45,468 nucleotides of DNA from a virus: positions 1 to 45,468 of the IMG/VR virus record IMGVR_UViG_3300041405_000097; one strand, 5' to 3'. The stretch's first letter is position 1. The number at the start of each line of letters is the position of its first letter. Shown here piece by piece: positions 5,634-43,132 of the stretch. The notes below the pieces were generated by a model, which saw only the letters and a list, made by a program, of their open reading frames with translations, searched no databases and had not been told where the DNA came from. The translations under genes and the position numbers were made by a program.

Positions 5634-5714
5634 TTGGTGACCTTTAGTGAAGTTGTGATTTCTACATTAGATATCCAAGCTCAGTAACTTTTGGATTAGA
5701 ACCTATTTAAAGAG

Positions 5715-6134: not shown

Positions 6135-6752
6135 ATGCTGCAAGAATACATCGAATCCGTTACTAAAGCTACTCCAGTTTTCGAAATCCCTGTTGTACTG
6201 GAAAAGAACGCAATCCGAGATACATTCTTCCCAGTATTCAAGGGTTGCAATGTAGTCGTGCTAGAAGATTCCGATCGAGTAGGCGATCCAACCAACCTGT
6301 TGGATGCTGAGGTGATTATCGATCAACAGTCGATCGATCGCCGCATCGAACCATGTTACCAAGCTGAGCTTTCTCGTATCCATTCCGAGGCAATGGTAGA
6401 AGATCTCACTGATCGTCTGAAGTCTGGTGAGTTATCCGACGACCCACTGGTTGAAATGCCAGAGAGCTTTGTTAGTCGTATCGCCGATATGTTGGAACGC
6501 CGCCGTATCAAACTAGCTAATGAGAAGCTGGTATGGTTCACCATGCGCGAAGATCATTCGGGACATATGTTTCTCAGCTGGCCACTCAGTGGTTACATGC
6601 CAATCACTGGCGGTATGATCTTTCATGATCTCAAGGTACAGAAAGCGTGCACCCGTCTGAAGAATCGGCACCACATCAAGAATATCCAAGTAACTGGTTC
6701 GGTAGTACCATCTGCGGTTCCAGTCTATTTCGATTGGATTCCGACCGAGTAA
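6135..6752 (+). CDS. Hypothetical early protein (205 aa)
   Basis: Start ATG at 6135 has AGGA eight bases upstream. The N-terminal half is acidic and mixed alpha/beta. A central helical region has alternating charges (LTDRLKSGELSDDPLVEM, then IADMLERRRIKLANEKL). The C-terminus is beta-rich and aromatic (MFLSWPLSGYMPITGGMIF). It forms a probable two-gene operon with 5750. I do not recognise a family. Confidence 0.75.
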   Translation: MLQEYIESVTKATPVFEIPVVLEKNAIRDTFFPVFKGCNVVVLEDSDRVGDPTNLLDAEVIIDQQSIDRRIEPCYQAELSRIHSEAMVEDLTDRLKSGELSDDPLVEMPESFVSRIADMLERRRIKLANEKLVWFTMREDHSGHMFLSWPLSGYMPITGGMIFHDLKVQKACTRLKNRHHIKNIQVTGSVVPSAVPVYFDWIPTE

Positions 6753-6773
6753 TACTAGAACCTGTTTTACGGC

Positions 6774-6781
6774 TATATCAC
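6774..6781 (+). promoter_or_regulatory. phiKZ-type early promoter variant (TATATCAC)
   Basis: TATATCAC differs by one base from TATATTAC and is preceded by TAGAACC and a T-rich stretch as at the other sites. The following TGTTGTGAATT is nearly repeated after the 7183 promoter. It lies 34 bases before the start at 6816. Confidence 0.6.
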
Positions 6782-6815
6782 TGTTGTGAATTTACCTATC
6801 CCTTGGAGTACTGAA

Positions 6816-7178
6816 ATGTCGATGTGCCCTAAAACCGATGCGATGGAAAATGGTCTGAAGTCGATCGTTGACGAGTTGATCGGTGCTGTGTGGGTTGAAT
6901 CCGGTAAGGCAATCCCAAGCTTCAACATCTGGGAAGCTGATAAAGCGATTGAAGTTATCCCCATCGATCGTGAAACCGAAAACTATCAGATCGACATGCG
7001 TGTCGGTAAGAAACAGTTGCGCTTCAAGTGGAAGTCCGGTGAGATGATCCTCAAAGGTTGTGGGGTGTATTTCTACGACTGGGGTGATTGCAACATGGAT
7101 GAACTGGCTATTGCCGGTGGTCTGATGTTGATGTACTATGGTCAGGCAATGGCCGAAGAAACATCAGAAGCAATTTAA
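6816..7178 (+). CDS. Hypothetical early protein (120 aa)
   Basis: The frame is open from 6786, but the ATG at 6816 has a good GGAG site eight bases away and lies correctly downstream of the promoter, so it is preferred over the GTG at 6786. It begins MSMCPKTDAMENGLKSIVDE. An N-terminal helix is followed by beta strands (KAIEVIPID, YQIDMRVGKKQLRFKW) and a C-terminal hydrophobic helix (LAIAGGLMLMYYGQAM). It is a single-gene unit: another promoter overlaps its end. No known motif. Confidence 0.75.
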   Translation: MSMCPKTDAMENGLKSIVDELIGAVWVESGKAIPSFNIWEADKAIEVIPIDRETENYQIDMRVGKKQLRFKWKSGEMILKGCGVYFYDWGDCNMDELAIAGGLMLMYYGQAMAEETSEAI

Positions 7179-31124: not shown

Positions 31125-31409
31125 ATGGCCCAGTCAGGAAATAATCCTTACCCGCTACAACATTCGCAAGATAAGTTTACCGGGAAGTCTCCATCGGCTA
31201 CAACTGATGAAGCGCAGCGATATAAAGACTTGCTGGGCTTCTCAGCTGCTGGCGAAGACGTTGGGTTGTTCTATCAACTCAACCAAGTCGCCGCCGCTGA
31301 GCCGGAGGAAGTTCAAGCTTACACTAATAGTGGCAGTCGTCAATTACAGAATATCAGTAATTATGGGAACTACTCCCAACCGATTGAAGCTGGCGGTAAA
31401 TACGCGTGA
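31125..31409 (+). CDS. Hypothetical tail-operon protein (94 aa)
   Basis: Starts MAQSGNNPYPLQHSQDKFTG only five bases after the tube stop. Polar, Gln/Asn/Ser-rich, low in hydrophobics, probably partly disordered, with an Ala/Glu-rich helix (LNQVAAAEPEEVQAY). It may be a tail chaperone or minor virion protein because of its place; no direct evidence. It ends at a terminator. Confidence 0.7.
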   Translation: MAQSGNNPYPLQHSQDKFTGKSPSATTDEAQRYKDLLGFSAAGEDVGLFYQLNQVAAAEPEEVQAYTNSGSRQLQNISNYGNYSQPIEAGGKYA

Positions 31410-36743: not shown

Positions 36744-36965
36744 ATGGCGAAGATCTCCAAGGGTAAGTTCCGTTGGTTACGGGCAGTGTACAAGGCCCAC
36801 ATTCCACGAATGTTTTACAACCGAGACGGTGACCTGTGCATGCAGTACTTAACTAAGGTATTCGTTGGTGTACGGATGTCTGGCGTTCAGGGCATGAAAG
36901 GTCCGTCGGGTCAAGAACTAAATAACACTTTGGAATACACGATCGATTTCACAGGGAATAAATAA
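36744..36965 (+). CDS. Small protein with SKGK leader (73 aa)
   Basis: Starts MAKISKGKFRWLRAVYKAHI with AAGG upstream. Basic N-terminal half and a beta-rich C-terminus (ELNNTLEYTIDFTGNK). It shares the N-terminal (I/V)S(K/R)G(K/R) signature with 37995, 38156 and 38539. TAATG overlap with the next gene. Function unknown. Confidence 0.7.
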   Translation: MAKISKGKFRWLRAVYKAHIPRMFYNRDGDLCMQYLTKVFVGVRMSGVQGMKGPSGQELNNTLEYTIDFTGNK

Positions 36966-37684: not shown

Positions 37685-38007
37685 GGTTTAAGAACCGTTG
37701 TTATGAACAAGTCCGTGTGGCTTATAAAGGCATGGGTTGTGAATGGACGCATGGTTATTACCAAACAGATGAAGCGGCACGTCAACATCGGAGACCACAT
37801 GGTAATCGGTTTGATCACGATGATCCAAACTATGATCTTGGTCGTAGACGTGACTCTGAAGACAACCCAGACATCTGGGATGCTTCTGAAGGCGAGGGTA
37901 AAGGGTTTCCATTTGAACGCGGTGCAGAGCGTGGTAACGCGTGGCATCGTAAACGCACTGAAGGTTGTGTTATACCAGAAGAGGACGATGAACAATGGGT
38001 CGAGTAA
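37681..38007 (+). CDS. Charged protein, third of three tandem paralogues (108 aa)
   Basis: ATGA overlap with the preceding gene. It begins MRFKNRCYEQVRVAYKGMGC. Rich in Arg, His, Asp, Glu and Gly (RRPHGNRFDHDDPNYDLGRR, GFPFERGAERGNAWHRKR). N-terminal KNR-C/Y-Y matches KNRYY of the second copy. Function unknown, possibly nucleic-acid or RNA binding given the charge pattern, but that is conjecture. Confidence 0.65.
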   Translation: MRFKNRCYEQVRVAYKGMGCEWTHGYYQTDEAARQHRRPHGNRFDHDDPNYDLGRRRDSEDNPDIWDASEGEGKGFPFERGAERGNAWHRKRTEGCVIPEEDDEQWVE

Positions 38008-38159
38008 GTCGCGGTAAGGTTGCCGATTTAAAGAAACGTTTGAATGTCATTCATCCGGCATTGCTACCCTACGTTGATATGTACCGTAAAGAAGGTGAAC
38101 GGTTGTTTGGCTTGACTGGATTCAATCCATGTCCGATTAACATGCGGGGCTTGAAATGA
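37995..38159 (+). CDS. Small basic protein with SRGK leader (54 aa)
   Basis: ATG 37995 with GAGG upstream and 13-base overlap with the previous gene; ATGA overlap with the next. It begins MGRVSRGKVADLKKRLNVIH and ends in a Pro/Cys-containing tail (FNPCPINMRGLK). Shares the SRGK/SKGK N-terminus with its downstream neighbours, so it belongs to the same family. Confidence 0.7.
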   Translation: MGRVSRGKVADLKKRLNVIHPALLPYVDMYRKEGERLFGLTGFNPCPINMRGLK

Positions 38160-38542
38160 TTTCCAAAGGTAAACGTCAGAATCTAGTACGTACGTTTGCG
38201 TGCCTTGACTTTATCCGTAAGATGGGTTTACCTAACGGTAGTATCGATGTCTTTGGATTGTGTGCACGTGCTGGTCGACTAGCCCATATCCGTCAACCAA
38301 GAACACCAGAACCATTCGACTACGACAAGTTCTTAGCTACGGCTATGGGGTCATGTAAGGCATGGGACACCGTAGGTAAGATATCGCTTGAGATCGGTGA
38401 GGAGATACTGCGTCGTCAAGAACAGCAGTTGGTGCATAAACCTCGGGTAGTGGTGGTACGCGAGATCGATCATTCTGATCCAACCCTACCGCAAGGTGAT
38501 GGATATTTTTATCTACCCTTCCCAGAGAAAGGTCCATTATGA
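38156..38542 (+). CDS. Protein with SKGK leader (128 aa)
   Basis: ATGA overlap with 37995. It begins MISKGKRQNLVRTFACLDFI. The C-terminal half KISLEIGEEILRRQEQQLVHKPRVVVV aligns with DVEIAISIERRSIHKPYLEI in the next gene, so the two are paralogues beyond the leader. Mixed helix/strand; ends acidic (PFPEKGPL). Function unknown. Confidence 0.7.
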   Translation: MISKGKRQNLVRTFACLDFIRKMGLPNGSIDVFGLCARAGRLAHIRQPRTPEPFDYDKFLATAMGSCKAWDTVGKISLEIGEEILRRQEQQLVHKPRVVVVREIDHSDPTLPQGDGYFYLPFPEKGPL

Positions 38543-39168
38543 GTCGCATCAGCAAAGGTAGGTTGAAAAACTTGTGGTCATTGTACAACGTCTGGTTGTT
38601 CATTGAACTGCGTGCTTATTATGCCACTGCGGCTAAGTGGCGTAGTCGGTTAGCCGATCCACGTGTTAAAGCTCGGATCGGAGCATTCCGTAGTAGGGTT
38701 CCATCGGAAATGCCCTTTGTTCGTGAAGTGGCAGCTAAAGGTTATTATGATGGCTGTCGGTCGATCTCATCTGAACTAGATGTTGAGATAGCAATCTCTA
38801 TCGAGCGCAGATCCATACATAAACCATATCTCGAGATTAAACGTGGTCGTCATCGCAGTGGGTTAGTTTCAACACGTGGTCCGAACGGTGAATTGTTGTC
38901 GACGTTGTTTGATCCAGCTGGTAACATATTGGCATATGACCTTGAAGCGGATGTAATAAGCGTTCGAGCTGGCCAGCTTCGTCGGGAAAGTAGTATGCCC
39001 GGTGTGATCTATACCGACCATGCGATCGATGCAGCATTGCTGGCATACGGAATTGATCAACTTGCAGACCTTAATGTCGCGGATACTTATCCAAAGACAA
39101 TCACGGTTACAGATGAAGCTAATCTGGATCGATTGTCAGACGACATAAAAAGCGCGCGCGGCGCATAA
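38539..39168 (+). CDS. Protein with SKGR leader (209 aa)
   Basis: ATGA overlap with 38156. It begins MSRISKGRLKNLWSLYNVWL. Basic N-terminal half; the block CRSISSELDVEIAISIERRSIHKPYLEI pairs with 38156. The C-terminal half is Leu/Asp-rich and more compact (TDHAIDAALLAYGIDQLADL). Last gene before a hairpin-rich gap. Function unknown. Confidence 0.7.
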   Translation: MSRISKGRLKNLWSLYNVWLFIELRAYYATAAKWRSRLADPRVKARIGAFRSRVPSEMPFVREVAAKGYYDGCRSISSELDVEIAISIERRSIHKPYLEIKRGRHRSGLVSTRGPNGELLSTLFDPAGNILAYDLEADVISVRAGQLRRESSMPGVIYTDHAIDAALLAYGIDQLADLNVADTYPKTITVTDEANLDRLSDDIKSARGA

Positions 39169-39180
39169 GTAATTCTAGGT

Positions 39181-39234
39181 AAAGCAATTTACAACGATAA
39201 ACTTGTTTATCTAAAGAGCTGTTTAAATTGCTTT
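39181..39234 (+). terminator. Nested AT-rich hairpin, possible operon terminator
   Basis: A perfect 11-bp outer stem AAAGCAATTTA / TAAATTGCTTT (39181-39191 and 39224-39234) encloses a second perfect stem GATAAAC / GTTTATC (39196-39211). TTCCTT follows. It comes 12 bases after the stop at 39168, fitting a terminator, but the stem is AT-rich with a long loop, so another role is possible. Confidence 0.5.
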
Positions 39235-39262
39235 TTCCTTAAAAGGTTTTATAAATAAATAG

Positions 39263-39270
39263 TATATTAT
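39263..39270 (+). promoter_or_regulatory. phiKZ-type early promoter variant (TATATTAT)
   Basis: TATATTAT within an AT-rich stretch, immediately followed by GAGGGGGGG. One base off the consensus. Transcription from it would produce a leader starting in or just before the GC hairpin at 39276. Confidence 0.55.
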
Positions 39271-39275
39271 GAGGG

Positions 39276-39330
39276 GGGGTTGGGCACCCCGAATAATATT
39301 CCTTATTCTTAGTATAGCGTGAGCTATGCT
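39276..39330 (+). ncRNA. Three-hairpin structured 5' leader (candidate RNA element)
   Basis: Three hairpins follow each other almost without gaps: GGGGT / ACCCC with TGGGC loop (39276-39290), GAATAA / TTATTC with a 6-base loop (39291-39308), and AGTATAGC / GCTATGCT with a GTGA (GNRA-type) tetraloop and one G-U pair (39311-39330). They lie between a candidate promoter (39263) and the ribosome site AAGGA (39344) of the 39356 gene. Such stacking is unlike other gaps in this window. It could be a regulatory leader, stability element or small RNA; only the pairing is observed. Confidence 0.55.
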
Positions 39331-39355
39331 AATTTATGCCCAAAAGGATCTAAAG

Positions 39356-40513
39356 ATGCCAACAGAATACAGATACGCCCATCGCATTCTGCGAGGTGGG
39401 CAATCAGTAAACGTTCGTAGTAACTCCACCTACGAAGAGATGGGTGAAGCCTACGGTGAAGAATACCTAGGTGAAGTATGTAGTGCGTCAGGAATGTTGA
39501 AACGACCTTATGTATCTCCTCGTATAGAGGAACTTATTCGTGAAGCAGCATTTGAGTTCAGTCAAGGACCACAAGGTAAGACTGCATTCGATCTATGGTG
39601 TGGCCTAAAAGGTAACAACACTGACAAGACCTATTCAACTTTCATTAAAGAACTCTCTCCTCCTGAAGGTAAACCTATGCACGATCCATTGCATGAATCC
39701 GTATTCGGCGAATCTAACCTTGCTACACCTCAGCTTGGTAATCTAACATGGCAAGAACTGTATGCGCAGGACTGTCAAGACTTCGGTGTAGAATCGGCTA
39801 ATGAACGACTGGCACAGCGTAGCGTAGAAAATGCATACCGTCTACCAGAACGTCAACGTAGTGAACTGGAGAAACTGTTGGAAGCTACTGAAATCAAACA
39901 CCCTGATCAAGTAGGTATCATTACTCCGACACGTGAAGACTATAGCGCTGCCTGTAAGGGCGAACGACCATGGCCAGTGGTACCACAGTTCTTGGGTCAA
40001 ATCCAACAACTGCTGTCCGGTAGTAATGAACCGCTCCCTGAAATCAAAGGGGTTGTATTGCGTGGATCTAAACTACCTGCTCATCTACAGGCGATTATCG
40101 ATGATGTGATGAGCCAACCAGCGATGTCACCTGATAACATCTTTGCATTCCTTGAAGAAGTGAATCGTCAGGAGGCTATGCGATTCTTGGTCACTTCACG
40201 TAGTGAAGAAGTCATCAAAGCTCTACGTAAGTGGATCAAGCGGATGCGTAACCGTGCTGAGACCGAATCATTGAATCGCCGCAGTGCTGAGAAGCAACTG
40301 GCGTTGTTCAAGATTAACGTTGAGCATCTTGAGCGTCAGACATTTGTGGTATTGGCAGATATCTTTGACACCCAAGGGTTCCGTCGTGAATACATCATCG
40401 ATAACGTTGAGGATACTACTTTCAATGTATCGATCAAAACTAAGAATGGTGGTGTACCAATCATGACCATCCGTTATGATGACTACGGCTTCGTGGTCAA
40501 GGCTCATCGCTGA
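39356..40513 (+). CDS. Hypothetical protein with coiled-coil (385 aa)
   Basis: ATG 39356 has AAGGA upstream and is preferred over the in-frame start at 39326. It begins MPTEYRYAHRILRGGQSVNV. The N-terminal half is mixed; around residues 300-330 there is a charged helix (KALRKWIKRMRNRAETESLN) followed by a beta-rich end (DTTFNVSIKTKNGGVPIMTI). No catalytic motif. First gene of a plus-strand run to about 42091. Function unknown. Confidence 0.75.
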   Translation: MPTEYRYAHRILRGGQSVNVRSNSTYEEMGEAYGEEYLGEVCSASGMLKRPYVSPRIEELIREAAFEFSQGPQGKTAFDLWCGLKGNNTDKTYSTFIKELSPPEGKPMHDPLHESVFGESNLATPQLGNLTWQELYAQDCQDFGVESANERLAQRSVENAYRLPERQRSELEKLLEATEIKHPDQVGIITPTREDYSAACKGERPWPVVPQFLGQIQQLLSGSNEPLPEIKGVVLRGSKLPAHLQAIIDDVMSQPAMSPDNIFAFLEEVNRQEAMRFLVTSRSEEVIKALRKWIKRMRNRAETESLNRRSAEKQLALFKINVEHLERQTFVVLADIFDTQGFRREYIIDNVEDTTFNVSIKTKNGGVPIMTIRYDDYGFVVKAHR

Positions 40514-42091: not shown

Positions 42092-42157
42092 TAGTTTACT
42101 GGCTTTACTAGTAGTATGTACAAAACTGTTTCTTACTAATTTGGAGTTACACCTTTG

Positions 42158-43132
42158 ATGAAAGCTTACGATTTCGAAGCACCAGCACAGCCTGTAAAAA
42201 CCTGTCTGATCTTCGCTGGCGGTTGTGGTCTCAACGTAGCCACCCATCTGGTAGACCTGCCAGACGTACACTGCATTGACACCTGCGATAAGAACATCGT
42301 AGATGCGCACCGTAAGGCCAAGGTCTTCCTGACCCAAGGTACTCGTGGTGCTGGTAAGAACCGTGCATTCATTTTGCCGAAGGTTCGTCCACAGATGTCA
42401 ACCTTCATGGGTACTCTACCAGAAGCTGATTTCTACATCCTGTGCTATTCACTGGGTGGTGGTTCGGGTTCGGTACTGGGTCCTTTGGTTACAGGTGCTC
42501 TGGCTGCTGAAGGCAAAGCGTTCATTACATTCGTTATCGGTGCTATGGAATCTCCTGAGGTTCTGCAAAACGATATCGATACCATGAAGTCGCTGGAATC
42601 CATCGCGGTAACCCGCTCGACTCCGATCGTGGTTAACTACACCCCGAACGTTAACGGTCAATCGTACGAGTTCATCAACAGCCAAGTGGCTGAGAACATC
42701 CGTCGTGTTGTGTGCCTGACTAATCAGAACCATGCCCGTCTGGACGTCCATGATGTAAACAACTGGGTACGTTTCACCGATAAGCATAAGACCCTGATCC
42801 CTCAGGTGTGCGAACTGCATATTAGCGATAACCGTAAAGACGCTGAAGCTATTCCAGAACCAATTGCGATCGCTAGTCTGTATCTTGATCCAGCTAAAGA
42901 ATTCGCATTCGGTACTCCGGTAGTACGTACTACTGGTATCATGAAGCAAGACGATCTCAGTGTAACTGAAGAACAACTCCACTTCGTGATCAACTCGGTT
43001 GGCGTAGTAGAAGTGATGAAGTCGATCAGCGATACCAAAACTGAAGTGACTCGTCAACAGGCCAAGTTCGTACAGCGTAACCCGCTGCTTGACCCTGATG
43101 ACGTAGCTGATGCAGATGGCATGGTTGTCTAA
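42158..43132 (+). CDS. phuZ: PhuZ-like phage tubulin (324 aa)
   Basis: PhuZ is a GTP-dependent tubulin/FtsZ homologue that forms a spindle to centre the phage nucleus and carry capsids. ATG 42158 has GGAG upstream; the TTG at 42155 is in frame. Visible GTPase parts: FAGGCGLNVATHL (19-31, T1 loop), YSLGGGSGSVLGP (97-109, tubulin signature G-G-G-S/T-G-S/T-G; the last Gly of FtsZ's motif is a Val here), PIVVNYTPNVN (156-166) and HARLDVHDVNNWVRF (192-206, the catalytic T7 loop, compare FtsZ N-x-D-x-x-D). The C-terminal tail is acidic (LLDPDDVADADG), as expected of a filament-forming PhuZ. Position some genes after the tail sheath fits phiKZ, where PhuZ is gp39. Confidence 0.9.
   Translation: MKAYDFEAPAQPVKTCLIFAGGCGLNVATHLVDLPDVHCIDTCDKNIVDAHRKAKVFLTQGTRGAGKNRAFILPKVRPQMSTFMGTLPEADFYILCYSLGGGSGSVLGPLVTGALAAEGKAFITFVIGAMESPEVLQNDIDTMKSLESIAVTRSTPIVVNYTPNVNGQSYEFINSQVAENIRRVVCLTNQNHARLDVHDVNNWVRFTDKHKTLIPQVCELHISDNRKDAEAIPEPIAIASLYLDPAKEFAFGTPVVRTTGIMKQDDLSVTEEQLHFVINSVGVVEVMKSISDTKTEVTRQQAKFVQRNPLLDPDDVADADGMVV

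Follow-up and report, generated by a model that had tools for sequence, protein, structure and literature searches.

A conserved, covarying hairpin in the phuZ region of phiKZ-like Pseudomonas phages and its possible role in transcription termination

The window analysed here, a stretch of viral DNA of 45,468 nt, comes from the genome of a phiKZ-like Pseudomonas phage, of which it covers 45 kb. It encodes the phage tubulin PhuZ at positions 42155-43132 and carries early-promoter sequences of the form TTTAAAGAGTATATTAC at 5714 and 33246. Our analysis concerns the non-coding gap at 39169-39355 that precedes the ORF at 39356-40513. A preliminary description of this gap proposed that a promoter-like box is followed by three abutting hairpins, forming either a structured 5′ leader of the 39356 gene or a small RNA, possibly undescribed. 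The ribosome site on which this proposal drew is present, as the Shine-Dalgarno sequence AAGGA (39344-39348) lies ahead of the ATG at 39356 (39344-39358 in all, plus strand). On the other side of the gap, small neighbouring genes at 36744-36965, 37995-38159, 38156-38542 and 38539-39168 encode products with similar starts (MAKISKGKFRWL, MGRVSRGKVADL, MISKGKRQNLV and MSRISKGRLKNL), as if duplicated, and the product of 38539-39168 matches a fragment of a divergent DnaB-like ATPase family (Pfam PF20307). An AT-rich hairpin at 39181-39234 on the plus strand (hairpin 0, AAAGCAAUUUA/UAAAUUGCUUU), possibly the terminator of the upstream gene, has variable counterparts in related phages.

Comparison with other phages by blastn aligned positions 39223-39341 with 201phi2-1 at 82.7% identity and gave shorter matches to Viktualia, Phabio, phiKZ and approximately 40 phiKZ isolates. 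What is conserved in these matches is the non-coding stretch itself rather than the gene behind it. Reading of gaps by eye, a fuzzy scan and a covariance model added PhiPA3, PA1C, Psa21, Noxifer, PS119XW and approximately eight IMG/VR contigs, which join phiKZ, 201phi2-1, Viktualia and Phabio as carriers of this unannotated element. The core of the element spans 39254-39312 on the plus strand of the window (R1 model match, 73.7 bits, E = 1.6e-12), and the covariance-model match in phiKZ lies at 31185-31250, also on the plus strand. In one scan the model matched 12 of 17 records, and PS119XW was matched separately. Each matching record holds one strong match, with hits on the reverse strand reflecting the palindrome. 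LucasX, FLC9, SNUABM_DT01, RAY and Moabite gave no match to the model, and the single hit in Eowyn was no better than chance (E = 0.74); the element was thus seen in phiKZ-like phages of Pseudomonas and in related contigs. An exact pattern scan of viral contigs with AATATTCCTTATTNTTAG returned mostly unrelated matches. One further contig (L055, IMGVR_UViG_3300035492_000331, positions 6150-6850) has a long gap upstream of phuZ that holds three G/C hairpins, each followed by CCTTATTNTTC; these are possibly diverged and multiplied relatives of the element, though the model gives them no score. Minus-strand hypothetical proteins annotated over or beside the element in PhiPizzaParty and PhiPA3 (L008:951-1049 and 1130-1225; L045:3791-3949) look spurious.

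The three inverted repeats are found at or near the positions first proposed for them, all on the plus strand: hairpin 1 (GGGGT/ACCCC, 39276-39280/39286-39290), hairpin 2 (GAATAA/TTATTC, 39291-39296/39303-39308) and hairpin 3 (UUAGUAUAGC and GCUAUGCUAA around a GUGA loop, 39309-39318/39323-39332). The minimum free energy (MFE) structure computed by RNAfold for 39263-39360 consists of exactly these three hairpins (-28.8 kcal/mol). Its z score is only -1.67, with 14 of 200 shuffled sequences folding equally well, which makes folding energy alone marginal evidence; the interval 39250-39345 gives a z score of -2.02. A further complementarity that the preliminary description missed joins ATATTAT at 39264-39270 with ATAATAT at 39293-39299. 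This pairing continues hairpin 1 at its base, in competition with hairpin 2, whose 5′ arm reuses the 3′ arm of the longer stem.

An alignment of 17 sequences (A4) distinguishes between these structures. RNAalifold yields one consensus helix, helix A, in which two stems, P1 and P2, are stacked across a purine junction into one long hairpin. The element begins at 39254-39263 with a near-invariant motif, (A)ATAAATAGT (alignment columns 158-166). The 5′ arm of P1 follows (AUAUUAU, 39264-39270), then the GA at 39271-39272 that forms the 5′ side of a GA/GA internal junction, and the 5′ arm of P2 (GGGG, 39273-39276), which belongs to hairpin 1 as first described. A G-rich bulge (GGG) and the loop UUGGGCA extend to 39286 and are followed by the 3′ arm of P2 (CCCC, 39287-39290), the 3′ GA of the junction (39291-39292) and the 3′ arm of P1 (AUAAUAU, 39293-39299). 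In other lineages the junction is GU/AU, AU/AU or AU/GU. A fixed 3 nt spacer, UCC, and a conserved, terminator-like U-rich tail, UUAUUCUUAG, complete the element at 39300-39312. The upstream motif may also pair weakly with the tail sequence UUAUUCUU (P0), as it does in the MFE folds of Phabio, Psa21 and two further members (L081 and L088). As a family trait, pairing of AAA(U/G)AGU with AUU(A/C)UUU is only suggestive: it is complete in phiKZ, Psa21, L081, L088, Phabio and Noxifer, carries one U.C mismatch in most others, and is broken in the members L057 and L060. The top of the hairpin, GGGGGGGACCCTTTGGGGGGGTCCC, hardly differs between distant phages, among them phiKZ, PhiPA3, PA1C and Psa21-like phages (for example L006:3020-3046). 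With its four runs of at least three G residues, a G-quadruplex is conceivable in those phages; the window copy has fewer G runs.

The structure of the long hairpin is shown by covariation. Helix A is paired in 98.3% of alignment cells, and four of its pairs are changed on both sides, in 12 cells altogether, a number reached in none of 500 shuffles, as is its covariation score of 0.247. When the partner strand was slid by one to three columns as a control, pairing fell to 38-61% and double changes disappeared. The pair at columns 171/209, for example, is UA in nine sequences, GC in five and AU in two. Moreover, the nine rows with a 1-base insertion in the 5′ arm of P1 (column 167) are the same nine in which column 216 holds an additional base; the insertion is thus matched on the opposite side of the stem and the 3 nt spacer before UUAUU is preserved. 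One-sided changes at 182/200, 174/206, 175/205 and 176/204 are G-U wobbles on the plus strand, and A-C pairs are absent from helix A save for one misaligned Noxifer cell. These wobbles favour a plus-strand RNA that includes the 5′ arm of P1 over a DNA palindrome, and since this arm takes part in the pairing, the RNA presumably starts upstream of 39264. Some of the compensatory change could stem from template-switch correction of quasi-palindromes.

Alignment of relatives, which had been suggested as a check on the three stems, reveals compensatory changes, but the stems are not maintained equally. Hairpin 1 forms the G/C stem P2 of helix A, and hairpin 3 covaries where it is present, in the 201phi2-1-like clade (compare GTATAGC/GCTATAC in IMG34358 with GTGTAGAC/GTCTGCAC in IMG41411), and is absent from Psa21-like phages. 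Hairpin 2, which excludes P1, pairs in just 73.5% of cells, and three of its six pairs are disrupted in 7-9 of the 17 sequences. We rejected it as a conserved stem, and three abutting hairpins are not supported as the conserved architecture. In the window the two folds are nearly equal in predicted energy, at -27.5 kcal/mol for the three hairpins versus -26.1 kcal/mol for the long hairpin, with a P1 probability of 0.42, whereas P1 is clearly preferred (0.71-0.96) in 11 of 16 members. The two folds are equally stable in 201phi2-1 (-36.7 versus -36.6 kcal/mol), where, as in its clade, the three-hairpin fold is closed by pairing of GAGGG with CCCUC just before the Shine-Dalgarno sequence. A two-state RNA is therefore possible in this clade, of which the preliminary description saw one state. 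Just ahead of the Shine-Dalgarno sequence, UGCCCAA at 39337-39343 (plus strand) is complementary at all seven bases to the loop of hairpin 1, UUGGGCA (39280-39286), with which it could form a pseudoknot; its CCC also closes the three-hairpin fold. This complementarity is confined to this phage, because the loop is changed in 201phi2-1 and others, and it was rejected as a family trait.

The genomic context associates the element with phuZ. In all 16 loci that reach far enough, phuZ lies 0.7-3.3 kb downstream of the element and is the sole downstream gene common to them, while the families of the genes directly flanking the element vary from lineage to lineage. The product of ORF 39356-40513 has no relative in the phage collection, whereas the element has relatives there, and we therefore assign the element to the phuZ operon region and not, as originally proposed, to the 39356 gene. 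The first gene may begin 33-45 nt past the element in several lineages; in phiKZ, PhiPA3 and PA1C the distance to the gene start exceeds 100 nt. PhiPA3, PA1C and PS119XW have an ordinary terminator ahead of the element and an early promoter approximately 170 nt after it. In the remaining lineages examined, the interval from the element to phuZ yielded no such early promoter.

Given its position and its resemblance to the terminators of these phages, we tentatively prefer to view the element as a conditional or leaky intrinsic terminator within the phuZ operon leader that sets how far transcription reaches into the operon, a reading to which we give a probability of about 40%. According to this model, an RNA begun upstream of 39264 would carry the element where the phuZ operon begins, either in its leader or in the space separating two cistrons. 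P1 (39264-39270/39293-39299), the GA/GA junction and P2 stack into the long hairpin, followed by the 3 nt spacer and the tail, and in this hairpin the phage RNA polymerases would meet an intrinsic terminator of weak or conditional action. A share of the polymerases would stop at the element and leave a short RNA, which in phiKZ would end at UUAUUAUUAG, near 31250, and the remainder would enter the phuZ operon. Perhaps the ratio of stopping to read-through would depend on a phage factor or on formation of the three-hairpin fold.

Partial rather than complete stopping is proposed because the element is laid out like an ordinary terminator but its U tract is broken. The order of parts in ordinary terminators of these phages is gCAUA-AA-GC stem-GA-UAUG-CC-UUAUUUUUUU. 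The element likewise presents a G/C-rich stem-loop, formed by P2 and P1, but in place of an uninterrupted U tract directly after the stem it has UCC-UUAUUCUUAG, in which the U residues are interrupted by A and C/A. Its U-tract score is 2.5-3.2, compared with 2.1-6.2 for ordinary terminators of the same phages. Other observations also argue against termination. The conservation of ATAAANAGT and GGGGGGGACCCTTTGGGGGGGTCCC is much stricter than a terminator would require, and termination would seem idle in PhiPA3, PA1C and PS119XW, given the terminator already before the element and the early promoter after it. The model also calls for a promoter upstream of the element, and none was identified. 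A further point against it is that the late promoter motif, TATG, falls within P1/P2 in most members.

The element might instead serve, as a hairpin in the 5′ leader, to protect the mRNA of the phuZ operon or to position it, acting as a barrier to RNase E or as an element governing ribosome access, without any termination. This account is possible but doubtful. In every lineage the element stands at the start of the operon, and it can lie close to the first gene; UCCUU in the window can pair with the Shine-Dalgarno AAGGA, and the MFE folds of L057 and L060 pair UUUCC with AGGAA/GGAA of that site. A transcript beginning at the G of TATG would also leave GAGGG or GUGGG paired at its extreme 5′ end; such a start, however, would exclude the covarying 5′ arm of P1 from the RNA. 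The distant gene starts in phiKZ, PhiPA3 and PA1C likewise do not fit, and UCCUU is replaced by UCAUU in four members (201phi2-1, Psa21, L081 and L088), so that we rejected an anti-Shine-Dalgarno role as a family trait.

We consider it unlikely that the element represents a new regulatory RNA family of jumbo phages, a bistable leader in which the terminator-like hairpin and the three-hairpin fold alternate to gate RNA polymerase into the phuZ operon.

A similarly low likelihood attaches to a role for the palindrome as DNA, be it as a promoter (TATG as a late promoter, or TATATTAT and an inverted repeat as an early-like one) or as a replication or packaging site. The late promoter motif recognized by the nvRNAP of phiKZ is TATG (T-3ATG+1, with +1 at the G; PMC4666361), and its early promoters are rich in A and T, with their centre close to -10 (PMC7598289). 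TATG is present at 39268-39271 and in most relatives, and is replaced by TGTG in Phabio and TATA in Noxifer; the motif is very common by itself. On its 5′ side the phiKZ element (ATATAAATAGTATATTAT) matches 15 of 18 bases of phiKZ early promoters (ATTTAAACAGTATATTAC), and the site occurs in a single copy, has a GC block and an AT-rich flank upstream, and is situated between terminator and promoter in PhiPA3 and PA1C. A late or an early motif could be read into the 5′ side of the element, and neither is conserved across the family. In place of the early-promoter core TATATTAC the window has TATATTAT (39263-39270), the box first taken for a promoter. Its relatives vary in sequence (ATATTAT, ATATTGT, AATTATAT, AATAGTAT and ATTTATA), each with a matching 3′ partner. 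The box therefore has the behaviour of a stem arm rather than of a site recognized by a protein, and the restriction of G-U wobbles to the plus strand also speaks against a DNA-level function.

Less probable still is an independent small RNA of approximately 100-160 nt, running from the GC block to UUAUUCUUAG, of which the element would be the 3′ part and helix A the terminator. Conservation does reach upstream (the GC block, hairpin 0 and CUUUUUCUUAAAAGAAAA), and the stretch is bounded in PA1C and PhiPA3 by the preceding gene's terminator on one side and the next early promoter on the other. A GC-rich block, ATAAGTAATT, an AT hairpin and CTTTTTCTTAAAAG within 39150-39250 recur in Psa21, PA1C and others, and the conserved region may be approximately 160 nt long. 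In the 17-sequence alignment, however, RNAalifold returned no consensus structure upstream of helix A, hairpin 0 included, and a Grad-seq survey of phiKZ found two ncRNAs, both at other loci (PMC8545117). An origin of replication was discarded, as the GC skew of phiKZ and PhiPA3 has no switch at the element.

The element is a genuine and conserved, apparently undescribed RNA element of phiKZ-like phages. This much of the preliminary description holds, although the fold differs from the one proposed and the role probably does too. Searches of Rfam 15 with the window and three relatives gave no match at the gathering score and only a chance miRNA match far below its cut-off, and we know of no conserved cis-acting RNA element in leaders of phiKZ-like phages. 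No description of the element was found in the literature searched; phiKZ dRNA-seq studies, in which its start or 3′ end may already be mapped, lay outside this search. The retention of its structure while PhuZ drifts to approximately 30% identity points to strong selection on the element as a control point for the phuZ region. phiKZ-like phages use two RNA polymerases of their own. The element could expose how these unusual polymerases terminate or are regulated, and it is directly testable in phiKZ, a laboratory model.

Several known systems resemble the element in part. The two ncRNAs reported for phiKZ derive from the 3′ UTR of PHIKZ298 and the 5′ UTR of p40 (Gerovac et al., 2021; PMC8545117). 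The latter is also a structured phiKZ leader RNA, with a proposed end at a premature terminator (PMC8545117), but p40 (PHIKZ117.2) is encoded at 114533-114628 on the minus strand, and its distance from the element at 31.2 kb on the plus strand excludes identity with this RNA. The element shares TATG and the TATATTAT box on its 5′ side, in the window and in phiKZ, with the late and early phiKZ promoters; it differs in that the box is not conserved in PhiPA3, PA1C, Psa21-like phages and Noxifer and that its 3′ complement changes with it. From phiKZ-like terminators (CAUA-AA-GCCCC..GGGGC-GA-UAUG-CC-UUAUUUUUUU), with which it has in common an AU lower stem, a purine junction, a G/C upper stem and CCUUAUU, it is set apart by its broken U tract (UUAUUC/AUUUAG), its G-rich bulge and loop, its occurrence as a single copy at one syntenic place, and the conservation of its sequence across distantly related phages. 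Attenuators and antitermination leader RNAs, such as the put RNA of phage HK022, are cis-acting structured leaders that alter termination. The element may resemble them in this respect.
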